From Pseudomonas putida (lineage in GTDB: Bacteria; Pseudomonadota; Gammaproteobacteria; Pseudomonadales; Pseudomonadaceae), in the NCBI GenBank assembly GCA_029953615.1, contig CP124529.1, positions 5,172,494 to 5,236,493 of the forward strand: DNA of 64,000 nucleotides. Direction: 5' to 3'. A program made the position numbers and the translations under genes. The notes under the pieces were generated by a model. The model searched no databases. It was not told where the DNA came from and worked only from the letters and a program-made list of their open reading frames with translations. Shown here piece by piece: positions 1,683-59,264 of the stretch. Each line of letters begins with the position of its first letter. Position 1 is the first letter of the stretch.

Positions 1683-2504
1683 TCAGGACGCCTTGCGTGT
1701 CTTCTTCGCCGGTTTCTTGCCACCCAGGCTGCGCTTGAGCAGTTCGGTAAGGTCGAGGATGTCCGCGCCTTTCCCAGCTTCCGTCGCCTCGCCCTTCTCC
1801 ACGGTTTCGATCTTGCCCTTGCTGGCCTTCTCTTCCACCAGGTCCATGATGGTCTGGCGAAACACATCCTGGTAGTCCGCCGGTTTCCACGGCCCGCTCA
1901 TGTCTTCCACCAGCCGCTTGGCCATGTCCAGCTCGCGCTTGTCCACCTTGGCCTCGGTCACACTGCTGTCCAGTTCCAGTGTTTCCAGCCCGCGCACTTC
2001 CTCGGGCCAGCGCAGGGTGATCATCACCAACGCGTCTTCCAGCGGCCGCAGCAGCGCCAGGTGCTGGCGGGTGTGCAGCACCACCGTGGCCAGCGCCACC
2101 TTGTCAGTCTTGGCCAGGGTTTCGCGCAGCAAGGCGTACACCTTGCCGCCACGACGGTCGGGGGTAAGGTAGTACGGTGTGTCAAAATACTGCAGCGGGA
2201 TCTCACCGGCTTCGACGAAGGAAAAGATGTCGATCGTCTGGGTCGCTTCGGGCCGGGCCTTGCGAATTTCCTCTTCGCTGATGACCACGTAGCGCCCCTT
2301 CTCGAACTCGACACCCTTGACGATATTGTCCTTGTCGATGTCCTTGCCGGTGACCTTGTTCACCCGTTTGTAGCCGACCGGCTCCATGCTGCGCTTGTCG
2401 AGCCAGTCGAAATCGACCCGCTCGGTGCGCACCGCGGTATTGAGGGCCACCGGTATGTGCACGAGGCCGAAACTGATGGCGCCTTTCCAGATTGCCCTAG
2501 CCAT
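1683..2504 (-). CDS. ku: Ku protein, non-homologous end joining
   Basis: 273 residues. The start ATG at 2504 (MARAIWKGAISFGLVHIPV) follows GGGAG by 8 nt; a longer reading to 2519 is less likely. The whole chain is the single Ku core fold of bacterial Ku, with the family motif YYLTPDRRGGKVYALL and a Lys-rich C-terminal tail (KKPAKKTRKAS). In bacteria the Ku homodimer threads onto DNA ends and recruits LigD. No ligD is in this window. In pseudomonads NHEJ acts mainly in stationary phase, and the next genes upstream are also stress-type, which fits that role (inference). Confidence 0.95.
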   Translation of the reverse strand: MARAIWKGAISFGLVHIPVALNTAVRTERVDFDWLDKRSMEPVGYKRVNKVTGKDIDKDNIVKGVEFEKGRYVVISEEEIRKARPEATQTIDIFSFVEAGEIPLQYFDTPYYLTPDRRGGKVYALLRETLAKTDKVALATVVLHTRQHLALLRPLEDALVMITLRWPEEVRGLETLELDSSVTEAKVDKRELDMAKRLVEDMSGPWKPADYQDVFRQTIMDLVEEKASKGKIETVEKGEATEAGKGADILDLTELLKRSLGGKKPAKKTRKAS

Positions 2505-2578
2505 TGGTGGTGCTCCCAAGGTTGCCTGCCAGTACCTGAATCGACTGCAACGGGTGGCGAAGGTTTAACCGCCCCGCC

Positions 2579-3484
2579 CTACGGCAGCGGGTTGCCGCCC
2601 GTCACGCCGAACACTTCACCGGTGATGTAGCTGGACTCCTGGCTGGCCAGCAACACATACACCGGTGCACATTCGGCGGGTTGCCCCGGGCGCTTCATCG
2701 GCGTTTGCGCGCCGAAGTCGGGGATTTTCTCCGGCGGTTGCCCGCCACTGGGTTGCAGCACGGTCCAGATGGGGCCCGGGGCCACGGCGTTGACCCGGAT
2801 ACCGCGCTCGATCACCTGCTTGGCCAAGGCCTTGGTGAAGGCGACGATCGCGGCCTTGGTGGTGGCATAGTCGAGCAAGGTGGCCGAAGGCTGATAGGAC
2901 TGGATCGAGGCGGTGTTGATGATGGTCGCCCCCGCCGGCATCAGCGGCACGGCCGCCTGGCAAAGCCAGAAAAGCGCATAGACGTTGGTTTTCAGGGTGT
3001 GGTCGAACTGCTCGTGGCTGACCTGGCTGATGTCCTTGCGCGCTTCCTGCTTGCCGGCGACGTTGACCAGGATGTCCAGGCCGCCGAGCTGCTCGTGGGC
3101 CTGGTCGACCAGTTCCTTGCAGAACTGCTCATCCTTCAGGTCACCGGCAATGGCCACCACCTTGCGGCCTTCGGCTTCGATCAGCTTGATGACTTCGCGG
3201 GCGTCGGGTTGTTCGATAGGTAGGTAATTGAGGGCAATGTCGGCGCCCTCGCGGGCAAAGGCGATGGCCACGGCGCGGCCGATGCCCGAATCCGCACCGG
3301 TGATCAGCGCCTTGCGCCCTGCCAGGCGGCCAAAGCCCTTGTAAGTGGTTTCGCCGTGGTCTGGCTCGGGCTGCATGTTGGCATCCAGCCCCGGGGCTGG
3401 CTGGCCTTGAGCCGGGAACGGTGGGTGCGGGTACTGGGTCAGCGGGTTCTGCATGCTGAACTGGTCGTGGGGTTTGTTGGGCAT
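2579..3484 (-). CDS. YghA-like SDR family oxidoreductase
   Basis: 301 residues. ATG at 3484 was chosen because AGAGGAG lies 8-9 nt ahead; a GTG three codons upstream is less well placed. A Pro/Gln-rich 45-residue leader precedes the Rossmann domain, as in the YghA/general-stress-protein-39 group. The NAD(P) motif [15 protein letters not shown] is followed by the structural NVAG, the catalytic Ser (ASIQS) and the Tyr-x-x-x-Lys pair in YATTKAA. The C-terminus [12 protein letters not shown] is classic SDR. The substrate is unknown, with aldehydes or stress-derived carbonyls a guess. It lies 75 nt upstream of ku on the same strand. Confidence 0.88.
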
Positions 3485-3518
3485 GGGGGCCACTCCTCTG
3501 GTGAAACCGGTATAGGCC

Positions 3519-3592
3519 CTTCGCGGGTTTGCCCGCCCCCACAGGTCTTGAAGCTGGTGATAGCCCTGCGGGAGCGGGCGAGCCCGCGAAGG
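3519..3592. repeat. Paired REP palindrome
   Basis: Inverted units of the CTTCGCGGG...CCCGC type flank a short loop. The arms are imperfect (TTTGCCC against GCGAGCC in the centre). It lies upstream of the SDR gene. Confidence 0.85.
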
Positions 3593-3837
3593 TTGCTCTA
3601 CCGTTTTCGAGGTAAACCGCCATCGATGGTTTTTTCTGACTGGCCCCTACACCGACCAGCGGTCGATACGACAGTCAAAGTGATCAGTTGCGCACCTCGA
3701 CAGCGTCGACATCCGGCGCGTCCCTGGCATCAGCTACTGCCACCACCACTGCCACCGTCTTTGGAATACACGCTGGAGAAACTACCGATGTAGTCGGGCA
3801 CCAGGACGGTCGAGGCCGACAGGACGCCACCATAGGT
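3593..3837. other. Gene-poor spacer with an open Gly/Ser stretch
   Basis: Directly after the nucleosidase stop (minus strand), 35 more codons stay open in the same frame, from 3837 down to a stop at 3730-3732, ending in the Gly/Ser-rich DGGSGGGSS. There is no start codon or ribosome site for it. It may be a decayed tail or chance. I see nothing else in the spacer. Confidence 0.4.
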
Positions 3838-21960: not shown

Positions 21961-22039
21961 GATGCTTCTCCCTGGGCTTGGCTGATGGCCCTGGCAGAAT
22001 AGTGACGGAAATCGCATCTGCCCGGCTAGTGCGGACCGT

Positions 22040-22154
22040 GTAGGAGCGGCCTTGTGTCGCGAAAGGGCTGCGAAGCAGCCCCAGCAATTTGTGCTTCTGC
22101 GCTGAAATCCTGGGGCTGCTTCGCAGCCCTTTCGCGACACAAGGCCGCTCCTAC
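22040..22154. repeat. REP palindrome with perfect 45-bp arms; intact IS110 target
   Basis: Arms 22040-22084 and 22110-22154 are exact inverse complements (GTAGGAGCGGCCTTGTGTCG onward) around a 25-bp loop. The stretch 22132-22158 is identical to the 27-bp site split by the IS110 element near 54972, so this is an unoccupied target. Confidence 0.95.
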
Positions 22155-22182
22155 AAGGGTCCGCGCAGGGCCATGCAATACA

Positions 22183-23489: not shown

Positions 23490-23583
23490 GTTGCTGTCCT
23501 TGATGGTGGAGACAGCGAGACCACGATGGTTGGCATGGACGGGCCTCGCAGTGAGGCCGGCGAAAAGGCAGGTTGCAAGCCCC

Positions 23584-23682
23584 AATCCCTTCGCCGGCAT
23601 GATCCGGATCAGGTTCGAAGGGTCACCGCGCTGCAGCGTTCAGCGGTTTCTCAGCCCTTGGCCGGGCTCCCCTTGGTGGCGC
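23584..23682 (-). ncRNA. TPP riboswitch (THI element)
   Basis: On the minus strand AAGGGGAGCCCGGCC and GGGCTGAGAAACC form the P2/P3 side with the conserved CTGAGA. GGTGACCCTTCGAACCTGAT and CCGGATCATGCCGGCGAAGG give the P4/P5 side with its conserved ACCTGAT. It lies about 95 nt upstream of the TenA pair, so TPP should switch them off. The boundaries are approximate. Confidence 0.95.
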
Positions 23683-23712
23683 TCAGGTATACCCCAGGGC
23701 ACCGCTGCTGTC

Positions 23713-52788: not shown

Positions 52789-54927
52789 ATGCGTCGCACG
52801 TTCGTTTCGCTTTGTGTGCTTCATGCTGTCTCCCCGCTGGTCTTTGCCGAGCCTGAACCGCTCAGCGAACCCGCCCAGATCGAACTTCAGGCCCTGAACA
52901 TTACCAGCAGCGCCGACAGCGAACGTGCCGATGGCCCGGTCGAGGGCTACAAGGCTACCCGTTCGGCCAGCGCCACCCGCACCGACACCGCCCTGCACGA
53001 GACCCCGCAATCGGTCAGCGTGGTGCCCAAGGATGTTCTGCAAGACACCGGCGCCACGCGCCTTCAGGACGGCCTGGACTACGCCGGAGGTGTCGGCCGC
53101 GCCAACAACTTCGGCGGCCAGGGCCTGACCAGCTTCACCGTGCGTGGCTTCACCACCGGCGAATTCTACCGCAACGGTTTTCCGATCAACCGTGGCTACC
53201 CCAATGCGCCCGATGCCAACACTGTCGAGCGCCTTGAAGTGATCCGTGGGCCGGCCAGCAGCCTGTACGGCCGTGGCGACCCCGGCGGCACCTTCAACGT
53301 GGTCAGCAAGCAGCCGCTGCCAGAGTCCAAGGTCACCCTGGGCAGCCAGTTCGATGACCAGGGCATGCACCGCGCGACCCTGGATGCTACCGGGCCGCTG
53401 AACCAGGATGGCTCGCTGGCCTATCGCCTGAACCTGCTGGGCGAAGGTGGCGAGAGCTTCCGCGACGATGTGGAAAGCGAGCGCTATGATGTGGCGCCAG
53501 TGCTCAGCTGGCAGGTCAACGACAGCACCAGGATCGTCTTCGAAGGCGATTTCATGCGCAACAACCATCCGCTGGACCGCGGCCTGACCCGCTACCCGAC
53601 CCAGACCGGCAGCGCCTCGCGTGACACTTACATCTGGGAAAAAGGCAGCGACAACCTACTGCACAACGACAACAACATGGCGCAGGTGCGCTTCGAGCAC
53701 CTGCTCAACGACAACTGGACGCTGGGCGGTGGGTTCCAGTTCCTGGATGGTTCGCTCAAGGGTAATGCGGTCGAAGCCAACAAAGCACCTGCAGACGGCC
53801 GCACCCTGGAACGTAACTTCAACTACCGCAAGCTGGAGTGGACCGACCGCGACTGGCAACTGAACCTGACCGGGCATTTCGATACCGGAGCGTTCAGCCA
53901 TACCTTGCTGACCGGCGTCGAATACGAGAACTACGACTACAACTCGATTATCCAACGCTCCTCCGCTGCTGATGGCACCTACCCCATCGACATCTACAAC
54001 CCAGTCCTTGGCCAGACTCGACCTGCGCTCACCCGCACCACCACCTGGGACAAGGAAAACCTGCAGACCTGGGCCTTCTTCATCCAAGACCAGGTGGCCC
54101 TGACCGAGCGCCTGAAGGCGCTGGCGGGAGTGCGCTTCGAACGTTTCGAGCATGACTACGACGACAAGCTGCCGACCAACCGCGACTTCAACAAGGCCGA
54201 AAACGGCGTCACTCCGCGCTTCGGCCTGATCTACGACCTGAGTGACACCGTGGCGGTCTATGCCAACACCGCGCGCTCGTTCAAGCCCAACACCGGCACG
54301 CCTGCCAGCGGCGGCGGTGGCTTTGACCCGGAAAAAGGCAAGTCCTACGAGCTGGGCATGAAATGGGAGGCGCTCGACCGCCAACTCAGCATCGATGCCG
54401 CGATCTACCATATCGTCAAGGAAAACGTACTGGCCAACGACCCGAACGACACCACCAACACCTACAAAATCGCCGCCGGCGAGGTGCGCAGCCGTGGTCT
54501 GGACATCAACATCGCTGGCAATCTGACACCGGAGTGGCGCGTGATTGGTGGTTATGCCTACGTAGACGCCGAAGTGACCAAGGATACGACCCTGCCCAAG
54601 GGCACGCGCCTGGCCAACATCCCGCGCAACAGCTTCAGCCTGCTGAACACGTACGAGTTCCAGGATGGCCTGGCCAAAGGGCTGGGGTTGGGGGTTGGGG
54701 TGAAGTACGTGGATGATCGCGCCGGCCAGACGGCAGCCACGACCTACACCATGGAGCGCTACAGCGTGGTGGACCTGCTGAGTTACTACAAGGTCAACGA
54801 ACACGTGCGGTTGAACCTGGACGTGAAGAACGTGTTCAACAAGGGCTATGATGAGGGGGCGTTCAACAACTACGTCTACCCGGGGGCACCGCGCACGGTG
54901 CAGGCCGGGGTTTCCTATACCTTCTGA
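52789..54927 (+). CDS. TonB-dependent siderophore receptor
   Basis: 712 residues with a signal peptide (MRRTFVSLCVLHAVSPLVFA). The plug domain shows TPQSVSVVPKDVLQDTGATR, VRGFTTGEFYRNGFPINRG and VERLEVIRGPASSLYGRGDP; the 22-strand barrel ends in VSYTF. There is no N-terminal signalling domain, so it does not sense through an anti-sigma factor. A Fur box upstream indicates iron repression. The siderophore is unknown; ferrioxamine-type receptors look similar. Confidence 0.92.
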   Translation: MRRTFVSLCVLHAVSPLVFAEPEPLSEPAQIELQALNITSSADSERADGPVEGYKATRSASATRTDTALHETPQSVSVVPKDVLQDTGATRLQDGLDYAGGVGRANNFGGQGLTSFTVRGFTTGEFYRNGFPINRGYPNAPDANTVERLEVIRGPASSLYGRGDPGGTFNVVSKQPLPESKVTLGSQFDDQGMHRATLDATGPLNQDGSLAYRLNLLGEGGESFRDDVESERYDVAPVLSWQVNDSTRIVFEGDFMRNNHPLDRGLTRYPTQTGSASRDTYIWEKGSDNLLHNDNNMAQVRFEHLLNDNWTLGGGFQFLDGSLKGNAVEANKAPADGRTLERNFNYRKLEWTDRDWQLNLTGHFDTGAFSHTLLTGVEYENYDYNSIIQRSSAADGTYPIDIYNPVLGQTRPALTRTTTWDKENLQTWAFFIQDQVALTERLKALAGVRFERFEHDYDDKLPTNRDFNKAENGVTPRFGLIYDLSDTVAVYANTARSFKPNTGTPASGGGGFDPEKGKSYELGMKWEALDRQLSIDAAIYHIVKENVLANDPNDTTNTYKIAAGEVRSRGLDINIAGNLTPEWRVIGGYAYVDAEVTKDTTLPKGTRLANIPRNSFSLLNTYEFQDGLAKGLGLGVGVKYVDDRAGQTAATTYTMERYSVVDLLSYYKVNEHVRLNLDVKNVFNKGYDEGAFNNYVYPGAPRTVQAGVSYTF

Positions 54928-54943: not shown

Positions 54944-54972
54944 GCAGCCCATCGCGACACAAGGCCGCTCCT
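54944..54972. repeat. Left half of a REP pair split by the IS110 element
   Basis: GCTTTGCAGCCCATCGCGAC then ACAAGGCCGCTCCT up to the insertion point. The right half continues at 56243 (ACAAGGAAACCGCG) with the inverse REP unit 56261-56306. Confidence 0.9.
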
Positions 54973-54994
54973 TGTATGTTGTGTCTGGCCTAGC

Positions 54995-55165
54995 GGGAGA
55001 GGTTATTCTCGTCGGGCTGAAGAAGCACTTCCGGGGAGGCCGATCGCTCCTGAAGGCAGGTATTGCCCCTGACCTTGTATGTAGAGAGGCCCCCCGCCTC
55101 ATTGCCCACTGCGAAGAGTATCGAGAAGCCGACAAGTCGGACTTCGCATTACAAGGTTGCAGCAG
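54995..55165 (+). ncRNA. Predicted bridge RNA of the IS110 element
   Basis: Read from the sequence: a 5' hairpin GAGA-ggttat-TCTC at 54997-55010. A first loop is closed by 55033-55041 pairing with 55088-55095. Inside it CGCTCCT (55045-55051) equals the left target and CCTTGTA (55073-55079) is complementary to the right target TACAAGG. A second loop is closed by 55109-55114 with 55157-55162. In it AGAGTATC (55115-55122) equals the element's right end and TACAAG (55150-55155) is complementary to CTTGTA at the joined left end. This is the architecture of IS621 bridge RNAs. RNA boundaries are not determined. Confidence 0.75.
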
Positions 55166-55229
55166 CATGAAGTTCGAGGTCGGGGAACCGGAGGCCATTG
55201 TTACCTAACTCGCTTGGGAGAGGGAAGGA

Positions 55230-56225
55230 ATGAGTGTCTGGGTTGGCGTCGATATCGGCTCACGTACTTCGGTCGTTGGGGTGCGTAAAGATGGGCGTCC
55301 GGCCGGACAGTGGGATATCGCTCAAACCCCTGCAGGCCGTAAGGCTGCGGTGAAAAAGCTGCTGGCACTCAAACCCAAGTCGATCGTGATGGAGGCGACC
55401 GGAATCTATTACCTGGACTTGGCCCTTGAGCTACATGCGGCTGACCTCCCTGTATCCGTGATCAACCCCAAGAGCTTCCACAATTTCGCCAAACTGATGC
55501 TGGTGAACAGCAAGACCGATGCAATAGATGCTCAACTGCTGTCCGAGTACGGCGAGCGTATGACACCGCGCTTGTGGACACCTCCAAGCCTTGTGCAGCT
55601 TGAACTGAGGGCTCTGGGGCGACACATCAATCGTTTGGTGGGGCATCGTACAAGGGCGAAGAACGAACTGCATGCATTGCAGGCGACCGCTACAACCGTG
55701 TCGATGCTGATCGAGGATCAGGAGGAAGCGATTGCTTCACTGGATAATCGAATTGAGCGCTTTCGTAAGGCGGGCCGCGAGCTGGTCGCCCAGTGTCCGA
55801 CGCTTACTCGGCAGTACAAGCAGCTGCTCGCAGGGCCTGGGATGGGAGAAGTCTCTGCACTTGCGGCATTGGCTGAACTGACCATCCTTCCTCAAATGCT
55901 CAAGTCCTCGCAGGTAGCTCGCCACGCGGGTCTCGATGTTCGACAGACCCAATCGGGAACGAGCATTGATAAGCCCGGCAGACTCGGCAAAAGTGGGAAT
56001 GCTTATCTACGGGCAGCCATGTACATGCCTGCCTTGACCGCAGTGCGCTGCGACCCTTATGCGAAGGCTTTTTACGAGTCGTTGGTCAACAGGGGCAAGA
56101 AGAAAATGCAGGCTATCGCTGCTGTCATGCGCAAGTACCTGACAGGCATCTGGGCATGTATGCGCGGGGATGAGCCATTTGATACGGCCAAGCTTTTCAG
56201 CTCTGAACACCTCAGAAAAGCTTGA
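55230..56225 (+). CDS. IS110 transposase (bridge-RNA-guided recombinase)
   Basis: 331 residues, ATG 55230 after AAGG. The RuvC-like DEDD domain has Asp8 (VGVDIG), Glu55 (IVMEATG), Asp97 and Asp100 (KTDAIDA). A coiled region spans about 140-185. The C-terminal Tnp domain has GPGMGEVSALA, then QSGTS and GKSGNAYLRAAMY, with Ser242 or Ser255 as the likely nucleophile. It looks intact. Codon use is less GC-rich than the surroundings. Confidence 0.93.
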   Translation: MSVWVGVDIGSRTSVVGVRKDGRPAGQWDIAQTPAGRKAAVKKLLALKPKSIVMEATGIYYLDLALELHAADLPVSVINPKSFHNFAKLMLVNSKTDAIDAQLLSEYGERMTPRLWTPPSLVQLELRALGRHINRLVGHRTRAKNELHALQATATTVSMLIEDQEEAIASLDNRIERFRKAGRELVAQCPTLTRQYKQLLAGPGMGEVSALAALAELTILPQMLKSSQVARHAGLDVRQTQSGTSIDKPGRLGKSGNAYLRAAMYMPALTAVRCDPYAKAFYESLVNRGKKKMQAIAAVMRKYLTGIWACMRGDEPFDTAKLFSSEHLRKA

Positions 56226-56260
56226 CCGCCAACAGAGTATCTACAAGGAAACCGCGATTT

Positions 56261-56306
56261 CCTGTAGGAGCGGCCTTGTGTCGCGAAAGGGCCGCACAGC
56301 GGCCCC
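56261..56306. repeat. Right half of the IS-split REP pair
   Basis: CTGTAGGAGCGGCCTTGTGT then CGCGAAAGGGCCGCACAGCG, inverse of the unit at 54944-54972. Confidence 0.88.
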
Positions 56307-56311
56307 AGGCA

Positions 56312-56833
56312 TCAGAACCCTTTGCTGTAGAACAGCGAATACGATTCGATGCCATCGTTAGGCTGCTTGAGCCCAGCGTTGGAGTAATGCATCGCGCGGA
56401 TGCCCACCTTCTGCTCCCCCGGCAATTTCAGGCCAAAGCCGATGCGGTCTTCGAAGTTGACCGCCGAGCCCAGGCGCTGGTCGCCCACGTCGGTCTTGGA
56501 AAACGCTGCCAGGCCAATACCGGCTTCGATGTAAGGGGTATAGCTGAAACCACTGAACTCGTAAGTGAACACCGGGCTGAACGACAGCGAGTGCGCGCCA
56601 CTGGCTTCACCACCTTCCCAATAGGTGTAGGCCGCGTCCCAATATCCGGTCAGATAACCGGTACTGCTTTCAAGCCATTTCTTGTCCCAGTCGAACGACA
56701 GGCCAATACGGTAGGTCATGTCGCCTTGGCCAGTGGCGCCAACGGCGCCGCTCACCTGCGCTGCCTGGGCCAGATTCGCCCCGGCAAAGGCCAGCACTGC
56801 AGCAGCCAGCGAAGCTGCTAGACGGGTTTTCAT
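56312..56833 (-). CDS. pagL: Lipid A 3-O-deacylase PagL
   Basis: 173 residues from ATG 56833 with AGGAGAA ahead. The signal peptide ends NLAQAAQ. The eight-strand barrel ends ...YSLFYSKGF. The catalytic triad pattern fits P. aeruginosa PagL (His126, Ser128, Glu140): in RAMHYSNAGLKQPNDGIESY His, Ser (+2) and Glu (+14) have the same spacing. It removes the 3-linked acyl chain of lipid A in the outer membrane. Its downstream end abuts the REP beside the IS. Confidence 0.9.
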   Translation of the reverse strand: MKTRLAASLAAAVLAFAGANLAQAAQVSGAVGATGQGDMTYRIGLSFDWDKKWLESSTGYLTGYWDAAYTYWEGGEASGAHSLSFSPVFTYEFSGFSYTPYIEAGIGLAAFSKTDVGDQRLGSAVNFEDRIGFGLKLPGEQKVGIRAMHYSNAGLKQPNDGIESYSLFYSKGF

Positions 56834-57028
56834 CAATGACTTCTCCTGATGGTCTACACGGCACGCGGGGGCTTGGGCCCCTCGATCTTATGCGGGACCG
56901 GCTGCATCCCGGCCGGTCACACGGAGTAATACTTTTCTGATTATTGTCCAGATAAACAGAAAGTTGAAAGTGAATTGCCACTATTGGCTATTCCGTTTAC
57001 CAGCATCTGCCCTGCCGAACGACAGCAC

Positions 57029-57775
57029 TCAGTCGTATTCCGCCTCGTCGTGTTCGCCCAGCAGGCGCCTTTGCCTCGGTGTGGCCTCCTCCAGCACCTG
57101 CGGGTTGAAACGCCAGCTCAAGTATGGCGAAAACTTCTGTGCGACCATGCGCCGGCCATAGTGCACTTGCAGCATGTCGCGCACCTGCGACTGGCTGCAG
57201 TTGGCCGCGCCGCAGTGCCAGACATCGCTGCGAAACACCAGCGCATCGCCTGCCTTGCACAGCACCGGCTGTGCCTCACGGCCCTGCCAGTGTTGCTCGC
57301 CCGCCTGCGGTGGCCGCGCCGCGCGGTGGCTGCCGGGCACGATCCAGGTCGGCCCGATGTGATGGTCGATATCGCTGAGGTACAGCTGCGCAGTCAGGAT
57401 CTGCGCAGGTTGGGTAAAGTCGCCGCGCTCGCTGAGCCAGGCGGGCAACTGCATGGGCAGATAGTCCAGGTGCAGGGCCATGCCAGGGTAGCCCGGGTGG
57501 CTACGCCAGGCGGTTTGCCCGATAACATGGCAGTCAGCGCCCAACGCTGCTTCGGCCAGGGCAATCAGCGGTGGCAGGTCGAGAAAAGGCAACCATAACG
57601 GGTTGCGGTTGAACACGCATTTATAGTGTTCCAGCAACCCTTGGTAATCCCAGTGAATGGGCTGCAGATCATCGATGGCACAGCGCAACAAGGCGATACG
57701 CAAGGGTTCGAGCACACCGGGGAGCAACACATAGCCCCGCTCGTCCAACATCTCCAGCTGAAGATCCAGGTTCAT
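57029..57775 (-). CDS. Phytanoyl-CoA dioxygenase (PhyH) family protein
   Basis: 248 residues. Fe(II)/2-oxoglutarate fold: ERGYVLLPGVLEP at the start, HLDY (HxD) near residue 101, GPTWIVPGSHRA in the core, and the third His in VWHCGAAN; Arg for 2OG is probably in SQVRDMLQVHYGRR. The substrate is unknown. 53 nt upstream lies the small periplasmic protein gene on the same strand. Confidence 0.85.
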   Translation of the reverse strand: MNLDLQLEMLDERGYVLLPGVLEPLRIALLRCAIDDLQPIHWDYQGLLEHYKCVFNRNPLWLPFLDLPPLIALAEAALGADCHVIGQTAWRSHPGYPGMALHLDYLPMQLPAWLSERGDFTQPAQILTAQLYLSDIDHHIGPTWIVPGSHRAARPPQAGEQHWQGREAQPVLCKAGDALVFRSDVWHCGAANCSQSQVRDMLQVHYGRRMVAQKFSPYLSWRFNPQVLEEATPRQRRLLGEHDEAEYD

Positions 57776-58397: not shown

Positions 58398-59264
58398 TCA
58401 GCTTGCACGCTTTTCTTCAAGTAACTTCACGAACATGCTCAGGCTGCGCGACACCGTGCCCCGGCGCCACACCAGCCAGGTTTTCAGGTAGCGGAAATCC
58501 TCCGACATCGGCCAGGCACTGACAGTACTGCAACCAGGCATGTTGTCGAGCATGCTGCGCGGCATCATGGCTAGCCCGGCACCGGCGCTGACGCAGGCCA
58601 GCATGCCGTGATACGACTCCATTTCGTGGATCTTGCCCGGCACAGCCTGGTCCTGCACGAACCAGTTCTCGAAATGGTGGCGGTACGAACAGTTGGCACG
58701 AAAGGCATAAATGCTCTCGCCGTTGACGTCCTGGGCGCGGGTTACCGGGGCGTGGTTGAGCGGCGCGATGACCATCATTTCTTCCTCGAACACCGGCATG
58801 CCCTCCAGCGTAGGGTGCAACACCGGCCCGTCGACGAACGCCGCCACCAGGCGGCCGGACAACACCCCTTCGAGCATGGTCCCGGAAGGCCCGGTGGACA
58901 GGTCCAGGTCGACCTTGGGGTAGCGCTGGTTGTAGGCCGCCAGCAAGGCCGGGATGCGCACCGCCGCCGTGCTCTCGAGCGACCCCAAGGCAAAGGTGCC
59001 TTGCGGGTCTTCACCGGCCACGGTCAACCGCGCTTCGTGTACCAGGTCGAGGATGCGCCGGGTGTACTCGAGGAAATTCCAGCCTGCGGGGGACAGGCGC
59101 AGGCGGCTTTTTTCACGAATGAACAGCTCCACGCCGAGGTCTTCCTCCAGTTGCTTGATGCGGGTGGTCAGGTTCGACGGCACTCGGTGGATGTGCTGCG
59201 CGGCAGCACTGATGCTGCCTTGCTCTGCCACGGCCTTGAAAATCTCCAGTTGCACCAAGTCCAC
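58398..59264 (-). CDS. LysR-family regulator (PtrR-like)
   Basis: 288 residues, GTG start at 59264 with GGAGAAAGG ahead. The N-terminal winged helix reads [20 protein letters not shown] then [20 protein letters not shown], and the rest is the effector fold. It is divergent from the aldehyde dehydrogenase with a 104-nt spacer. This matches the ptrR-sad pair of pseudomonads, where it controls succinate semialdehyde dehydrogenase (by context). Confidence 0.88.

Follow-up and report, generated by a model that had tools for sequence, protein, structure and literature searches.

What brings 11 near-identical copies of an insertion sequence, all in a single Pseudomonas putida genome, to one and the same point of the REP repeat? 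We examined one of these copies within a 64,000-nucleotide stretch of that genome (the window). A first-pass annotation of this DNA had assigned to the left end of the element a bridge RNA that follows the IS621 plan, with two loops whose guides match target and donor, and every sequence that it quoted was found where it had been placed. A scan of the window at Rfam gathering scores returned nothing at the element, its sole match being a TPP riboswitch. The surroundings are as follows.

52789-54927, + strand: TonB-dependent receptor
56312-56836, - strand: PagL-type lipid A deacylase
57029-57775, - strand: PhyH-type dioxygenase
58398-59264, - strand: LysR regulator
23568-23683, - strand: TPP riboswitch, the one Rfam match noted above

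The element is a real IS110-group insertion sequence, consisting of a 257 bp non-coding left end, the single gene tnp, and a 17 bp right end after tnp. Its parts and the sequences beside it are:

54973-56242, + strand: insertion sequence, with a single CT core counted in at the right; ends common to 11 of 11 copies in this genome
54966-54972, + strand: left target CGCTC-CT (a REP half, its CT at 54971-54972), identical in 11 of 11 copies
55230-56225, + strand: tnp, a 331-aa DEDD recombinase, recognized by Pfam, NCBIfam and solved relatives
56241-56245, + strand: core CT and right target ACA (a REP half), CT-ACA in 11 of 11 copies

The ends had been correctly drawn: all 11 copies begin with TGTATG directly after CT, finish with AGAGTATCT, and have CT on both sides. 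The ends and the core are firm because every copy lies in REP with CGCTC-CT to the left and CT-ACA to the right. The base after CT-ACA is A in four copies, G in four, T in two and C in one, and the right flank reads ACAAGG in just four of the 11. ISPpu10 duplicates CT and inserts in REP with CCCGCTCCTAC; set beside ISPpu10 by description, the present element is ISPpu10-like. The target string GGCCGCTCCTACA has 231 exact occurrences in the genome, and the same string read backwards has six. Within the window, further exact occurrences form an inverted pair at 22039/22143 (22039-22155), and another lies on the minus strand at 56263-56275, 21 bases past the element.

The recombinase belongs to the family for which bridge RNAs are described. 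Its protein carries PF01548 and PF02371, both above cutoff, the combination by which the IS110 family is recognized, and it passes the NCBIfam model NF033542, "IS110 family RNA-guided transposase", with 190.1 bits against a cutoff of 140. The closest solved relative is the ISCro4 recombinase (E = 7.1e-40, residues 4-321), and the solved IS621 recombinase also matches (E = 8.7e-33), both over residues ~4-320. Residues D8, E55, D97, D100 and S242 align with conserved motifs of IS621. The long non-coding end lies upstream of tnp (257 bp before the gene versus 17 bp after), as in the IS110 group, whereas in IS1111 it lies downstream. A protein search that scored 8000 candidates gave 996 relatives; the best 120 of these stand outside the comparisons described below.

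The protein family, guides that covary with targets, and helices that covary all support the proposed left-end bridge RNA of the IS621 type. We consider it very probable that this ISPpu10-like, IS110-group element moves by bridge-RNA-guided recombination, with binding and movement predicted from the sequence. A left-end bridge RNA with guides for the two REP halves would therefore account for the targeting of REP. The guides in the target loop are:

55045-55051, + strand: left-target guide CGCTC-CT; positions -4 to -1 match 49, 50, 50 and 50 of 50 sites
55079-55084, + strand: right-target guide (A)TGTAG, pairing with CT-ACA(T); of 48 sites, 44 match at position 3 and 29 at position 4

Relatives were gathered from one scan of genome contigs (12 loci) and from draws of genomes by genus (398 genomes, 9 with a match), class (369, 6), order (390, 4) and phylum (398, 1). 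The source genome was counted in every draw, and among the 398 genomes of the phylum draw it alone matched. The resulting guide table holds 52 loci in 12 distinct guide classes, with a left target in 50 and a right target in 48. Four G213 loci have no right target because the CT core is absent after their right end, the left flank is missing from the Root562 locus, and L037, a composite, was entered without its left target. Kept out of the table were L063 (left end not found), L066 (motif not found), the fragments L020-L023, L032 and L039, and the duplicate loci L024, L026, L033, L040, L046 and L051; two plasmid relatives found later, L112 and L113, stand outside the count of 52.

The left guide, identical to the left flank as first annotated, tracks the left target across these relatives. 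None of 20000 permutations over the 12 classes did as well, nor did any of 20000 over the 20 element types, counts to be read with the fact that related elements are not independent and that every class sits in repeats of its own host. Position -5 matches in only 37 of 50 sites. Guide and left target agree in single cases as different as CCGAC (G644), CCACC (G1250) and CACTC (L018 and G213), and in G020 the guides CGGTC and CCGTAG accompany the targets CCGGTC-CT and CT-ACG. G020 also shows a misfit, its left guide reading CC opposite a CT core.

The right guide required correction. It had been read as CCTTGTA (55073-55079), complementary to the right flank TACAAGG, and that reading of the same bridge RNA has some appeal, since seven bases fit the flank of this copy and four of the 11 copies carry ACAAGG. 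The fit arises because this copy occupies a REP repeat reading ACAAGG, as four of the 11 do, and ACAAGGG is found in 9 of 30 unoccupied REP sites inspected (of the 231) regardless of insertion. Most of CCTTGTA falls within the hairpin inside the target loop, on the 3' side: its CCTT belongs to AAGGCAGG/CCTG-A-CCTT, a helix with compensatory double changes at five of eight pairs. Nor does CCTTGTA track targets, as 9785 (positions 3-6) and 8261 (positions 3-4) of 20000 permutations over classes, and 3304 of 20000 over element types, were as good. For TGTAG the corresponding figures are 56 (positions 3-6) and 262 (positions 3-4) of 20000 over classes and 0 of 20000 (positions 3-6) over types, with the same dependence among relatives. 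On this comparison TGTAG (55080-55084) is the guide for the right target, which moves it 6-7 nt in the 3' direction from where it was first placed, and a guide role for CCTTGTA appears highly improbable.

With the right guide so placed, the element has a target loop in which both guides follow the target. Matches at positions 1-2 of the right target (48 of 48) carry no weight because the search motif required GTAGA. From position 3 outward the matches number 44, 29, 8 and 6 of 48 (positions 3, 4, 5 and 6), and the guide seems to read about three bases past the core firmly. The right guide of IS621 is described as four bases, core included (PMC11208158). Where the guide is CTGTAG the right target is CT-ACAG in 19 of 21 sites, and where it is CCGTAG, in G020, the target is CT-ACG in four of four. 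At position 4, the base is G in 19 of the 21 sites where the guide predicts G, and T in 4 of the 13 where it predicts T (p = 0.0005, a difference in which the hosts also differ). The present element belongs to the latter kind: its guide predicts T, which is found in 2 of 11 sites, and a preference for T at position 4 in this genome, 2 of 11 occupied versus 1 of 30 unoccupied sites, was not significant (p = 0.17). In G644 the right guide predicts G at position 3, and A is present in four of four sites.

A comparison of left ends in different target sites had been suggested as the way to check the bridge RNA, and related copies in other targets with an unchanged, unpaired first loop as the finding that would speak against it. 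Over the 52 loci and 12 classes the guides vary with the target, and relatives at other targets have different guides that fit their own sites; the adverse case was not seen. Such guide-target pairs reveal the reading length of each guide and the misfits that occur.

Comparison of 20 element types extends the two-loop structure that had been drawn by hand. All of the following features are on the + strand.

54988-55017, + strand: 5' stem-loop of the RNA (by eye), with pairing arms of other sequence in relatives
55028-55034, + strand: P0, 5' arm CTTCCGG, partner of 55188-55194; 136 of 140 cells paired, 20 types
55033-55041, + strand: target-loop stem, 5' arm, two bases common with P0; 98.8% paired, double changes at 3 of 8 pairs
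55053-55076, + strand: inner hairpin of the target loop; 96.2% of cells paired, double changes at 5 of 8 pairs
55088-55095, + strand: target-loop stem, 3' arm, from the helix comparison over 20 types
55096-55100, + strand: P3, 5' arm GCCTC, partner of 55176-55181; 98.0% paired, double changes 0 (20 types)
55109-55114 and 55157-55162, + strand: donor-loop stem, 5' and 3' arms; 75.4% paired, double changes at 3 of 6 pairs
55125-55145, + strand: inner hairpin of the donor loop; 97.2% of cells paired, double changes at 5 of 9 pairs
55176-55181, + strand: P3, 3' arm GAGGTC, from RNAalifold, the helix comparison and plasmid relatives
55188-55194, + strand: P0, 3' arm CCGGAGG, with the same counts as its partner

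The closing stems of both loops hold, the target-loop stem with 98.8% of its cells paired over the 20 types and the donor-loop stem as the weakest helix. Missing from the original drawing were two long-range helices, P0 and P3, and about 30 nt of conserved structure, which continues to 55194. RNAalifold found 41 pairs, and 18 of these show one or more double changes. The hand-named helices comprise 36 pairs. Pairing holds in 93.8% of their 714 cells, and double changes occur at 16 pairs, a number reached in 0 of 500 shuffles; when the partners are slid by 1-3 columns, pairing falls to 34-53%. The left end thus contains conserved stem-loops with covariation. The 5' stem-loop is made in relatives from arms such as AGCCTGA/TCAGGCT, CACCAGC/GCTGGTG and TCTGGCA/TGCCAGA.

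P0 was judged on 13 distinct arm pairs, in which 88 of 91 cells are paired against a permuted mean of 74.8, a value reached in 1 of 20000 permutations. Support for P3 within the 20 types is weak because double changes are absent; it recurs in other sequence, in the same order along the RNA, in the two plasmid relatives (CACCTC/GAGGTTG in the Vibrio copy, CGTCCCT/AGGGACG in the acidobacterial copy), where P0 keeps six of seven and seven of seven pairs, respectively. P0 and the stem of the first loop both use the G's at 55033-55034, so the drawn pairs cannot all form together. The chances seem about even that the ISPpu10 group has bridge RNAs with a distinct architecture, in which P0 closes the whole, P3 surrounds the donor loop, both loops are branches of one closed RNA, and the 3' end lies ~30 nt beyond that of the IS621 RNA. 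If this were true, P0 and P3 could fix the geometry of the two loops or couple the guide RNA to tnp expression, and if both helices matter, bridge RNAs of this group would have to extend further in the 3' direction than that of IS621 in order to work.

The folding energy of the single sequence was rejected as evidence (z = -0.90 and -0.39). In the minimum-energy fold of 54984-55229 the left guide is paired with upstream bases and the target loop is not formed.

A folded left end might instead be a leader or regulatory RNA of tnp, as in ISPpu9, the guide matches being remnants of joined ends or captured REP. In P. putida, the tnp leader of ISPpu9 is reported to be structured, and small RNAs with a regulatory role are reported for the same element (PMC8450116); the structure described here extends to 36 bases before the tnp start. 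A leader would not explain, however, why two distinct segments within a single loop both covary with the target, and we regard this account as very unlikely. The bridge RNA remains the preferred reading. Its putative donor-loop guides are:

55115-55122, + strand: left-donor guide AGAGTATC, identical to 56234-56241, the right end of the element
55150-55155, + strand: right-donor guide TACAAG, complementary to CT-TGTA

As had been noted, the left-donor guide equals the right end of the element by sequence identity, and the right-donor guide pairs with CTTGTA at the joined ends. Both guides fit the element's own joined ends, and these ends hardly vary across relatives. The outermost base of the left-donor guide differs in several guide classes, as judged by eye.

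Joining the two ends brings together a promoter-like, presumably active site, TTGACC-17-TATGTT:

54975-54980, + strand: -10-like TATGTT of the putative promoter at the joined ends; TATG here in 18 of 18 types
56222-56227, + strand: -35-like TTGACC of the putative promoter, with the stop codon of tnp inside it; the spacing to TATGTT is 17 bases once the ends are joined

In 17 of 18 types the junction has a -35 hexamer with at least four of six consensus bases at 17-base spacing, and the flanks of integrated copies have at most three of six at -35. TTGA with 17-base spacing is also kept in G646, a relative with 42% protein identity. The element's own junction was rejected as evidence when taken alone, since a site as good turns up in 283 of 5000 shuffles; only conservation counts.

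Among plasmid records, the whole element matched one and the protein matched two; phage records searched with 55024-55200 gave no match. The first plasmid relative (L112) is an IS110 relative at about 2468-3700 of the Vibrio alginolyticus plasmid pVb1796 (IncC), with 43.3% protein identity. Its bridge-RNA homologue is clear and unannotated, and its site is unlike the REP string. That site reads CACTC-CT / CT-ACAAG and the guides read CGCTC-CT and TTTGTAG, so that the left target fits at four of five positions and the right target fits at ACAA. The second (L113), on an acidobacterial plasmid, has 38.7% protein identity. Its left target is TTCCCACC-CT and the guide TTCCCACC-C, with eight left positions fitting and a misfit at the core T; its right target is CT-TCCC and the guide GCGAAG, with positions 1-2 fitting and position 3 misfitting. 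Here the first right-target base and its guide base are altered together.

These relatives bear on a further possibility, that the recombinase itself reads the palindromic REP structure and that the RNA has another role. All 11 insertions in this genome do lie at one point of a palindromic repeat. Relatives lie at other sequences, however, including the Vibrio and acidobacterial plasmid sites unlike the REP string, and their guides mainly fit their own sites. Direct reading of REP by the protein is accordingly a very remote prospect, and guidance by the bridge RNA is retained.

Some copies are unusual in structure. In four G213 copies (L027, L035, L042 and L048) the right end AACAGAGTATC continues into the interior of tnp rather than into a CT core. 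These copies resemble composites in which the 3' part is repeated; one such additional stretch corresponds to query residues 195-331. In L037 (G020), a complete copy begins right after codon seven of another copy's tnp, the two left ends being 286 bases apart; this may reflect insertion into the element's own gene followed by deletion, with an ambiguous breakpoint.

Taken in order, the proposed cycle would run as follows. The recombinase would excise the element as a circle, as expected from its family, joining AGAGTAT-CT to TGTATG. The junction would complete the promoter TTGACC-17-TATGTT, a site that is present and presumably active, and transcription of the left end would follow. Comparison with relatives shows the fold of this RNA, in which a 5' stem-loop precedes the target and donor loops and the helices P0 and P3 reach 55194. 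Covariation shows that CGCTC-CT (55045-55051) reads the left target and TGTAG (55080-55084) reads CT-ACA, and sequence identity suggests that AGAGTATC and TACAAG in the donor loop would read the element's own ends. By analogy to IS621, strand exchange would take place at CT, and the element would therefore land in REP repeats reading CGCTC-CT-ACA. With 231 exact target strings in its genome, and with relatives in which the guides have been naturally rewritten, the locus offers a natural example of very probable RNA-guided recombination by an element present in many copies.

Much of this resembles systems already described. In P. putida KT2440 every copy of ISPpu9 and ISPpu10 lies at a single REP point with a 2-bp repeat, and the present element is like ISPpu10 in belonging to the IS110 family, in having all copies at one REP point, and in its 2-bp repeat, which is CT in 11 of 11 copies here (PMC1525189). 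ISPpu9 is an IS110-family element of P. putida at the identical REP point and is reported as not highly similar to ISPpu10 in sequence (PMC1525189); the RNAs described for it are an antisense one upstream of tnp and a sense one downstream (PMC8450116). For ISEc21, of the IS110 type, the upstream non-coding region encoding its seekRNA is reported to be required for circle formation and transposition; this RNA has matches to both target strands, as the guides here do, and the ISEc21 target differs (PMC11187229). The likeness to ISCro4, the nearest solved recombinase, is one of protein.

The element is like IS621 in its CT core, REP target, left-end RNA with a 5' stem-loop, and junction promoter, and also in the order of parts, with a target loop of stem, left guide, hairpin and right guide and a donor loop of stem, left guide, hairpin and right guide (PMC11208158, PMC11208160). 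In IS621 the joined ends are reported to form a promoter, and the RNA to be 177 nt long (PMC11208160). That RNA is described as ending with the donor loop at nt 177, whereas here P0 and P3 reach ~30 nt beyond. Bridge RNAs are predicted in 85.7% of IS110s, and ISPpu10 is among six elements for which a predicted bridge RNA is drawn with its left- and right-target and left- and right-donor guides (Durrant et al. 2024, PMC11208160). If the element is ISPpu10 or near it, the central claim is therefore already in print in that report. The bridge RNA is of a kind already known, and the novelty is small; what is added is a corrected position of the right-target guide and natural evidence of guides changing with the landing site.
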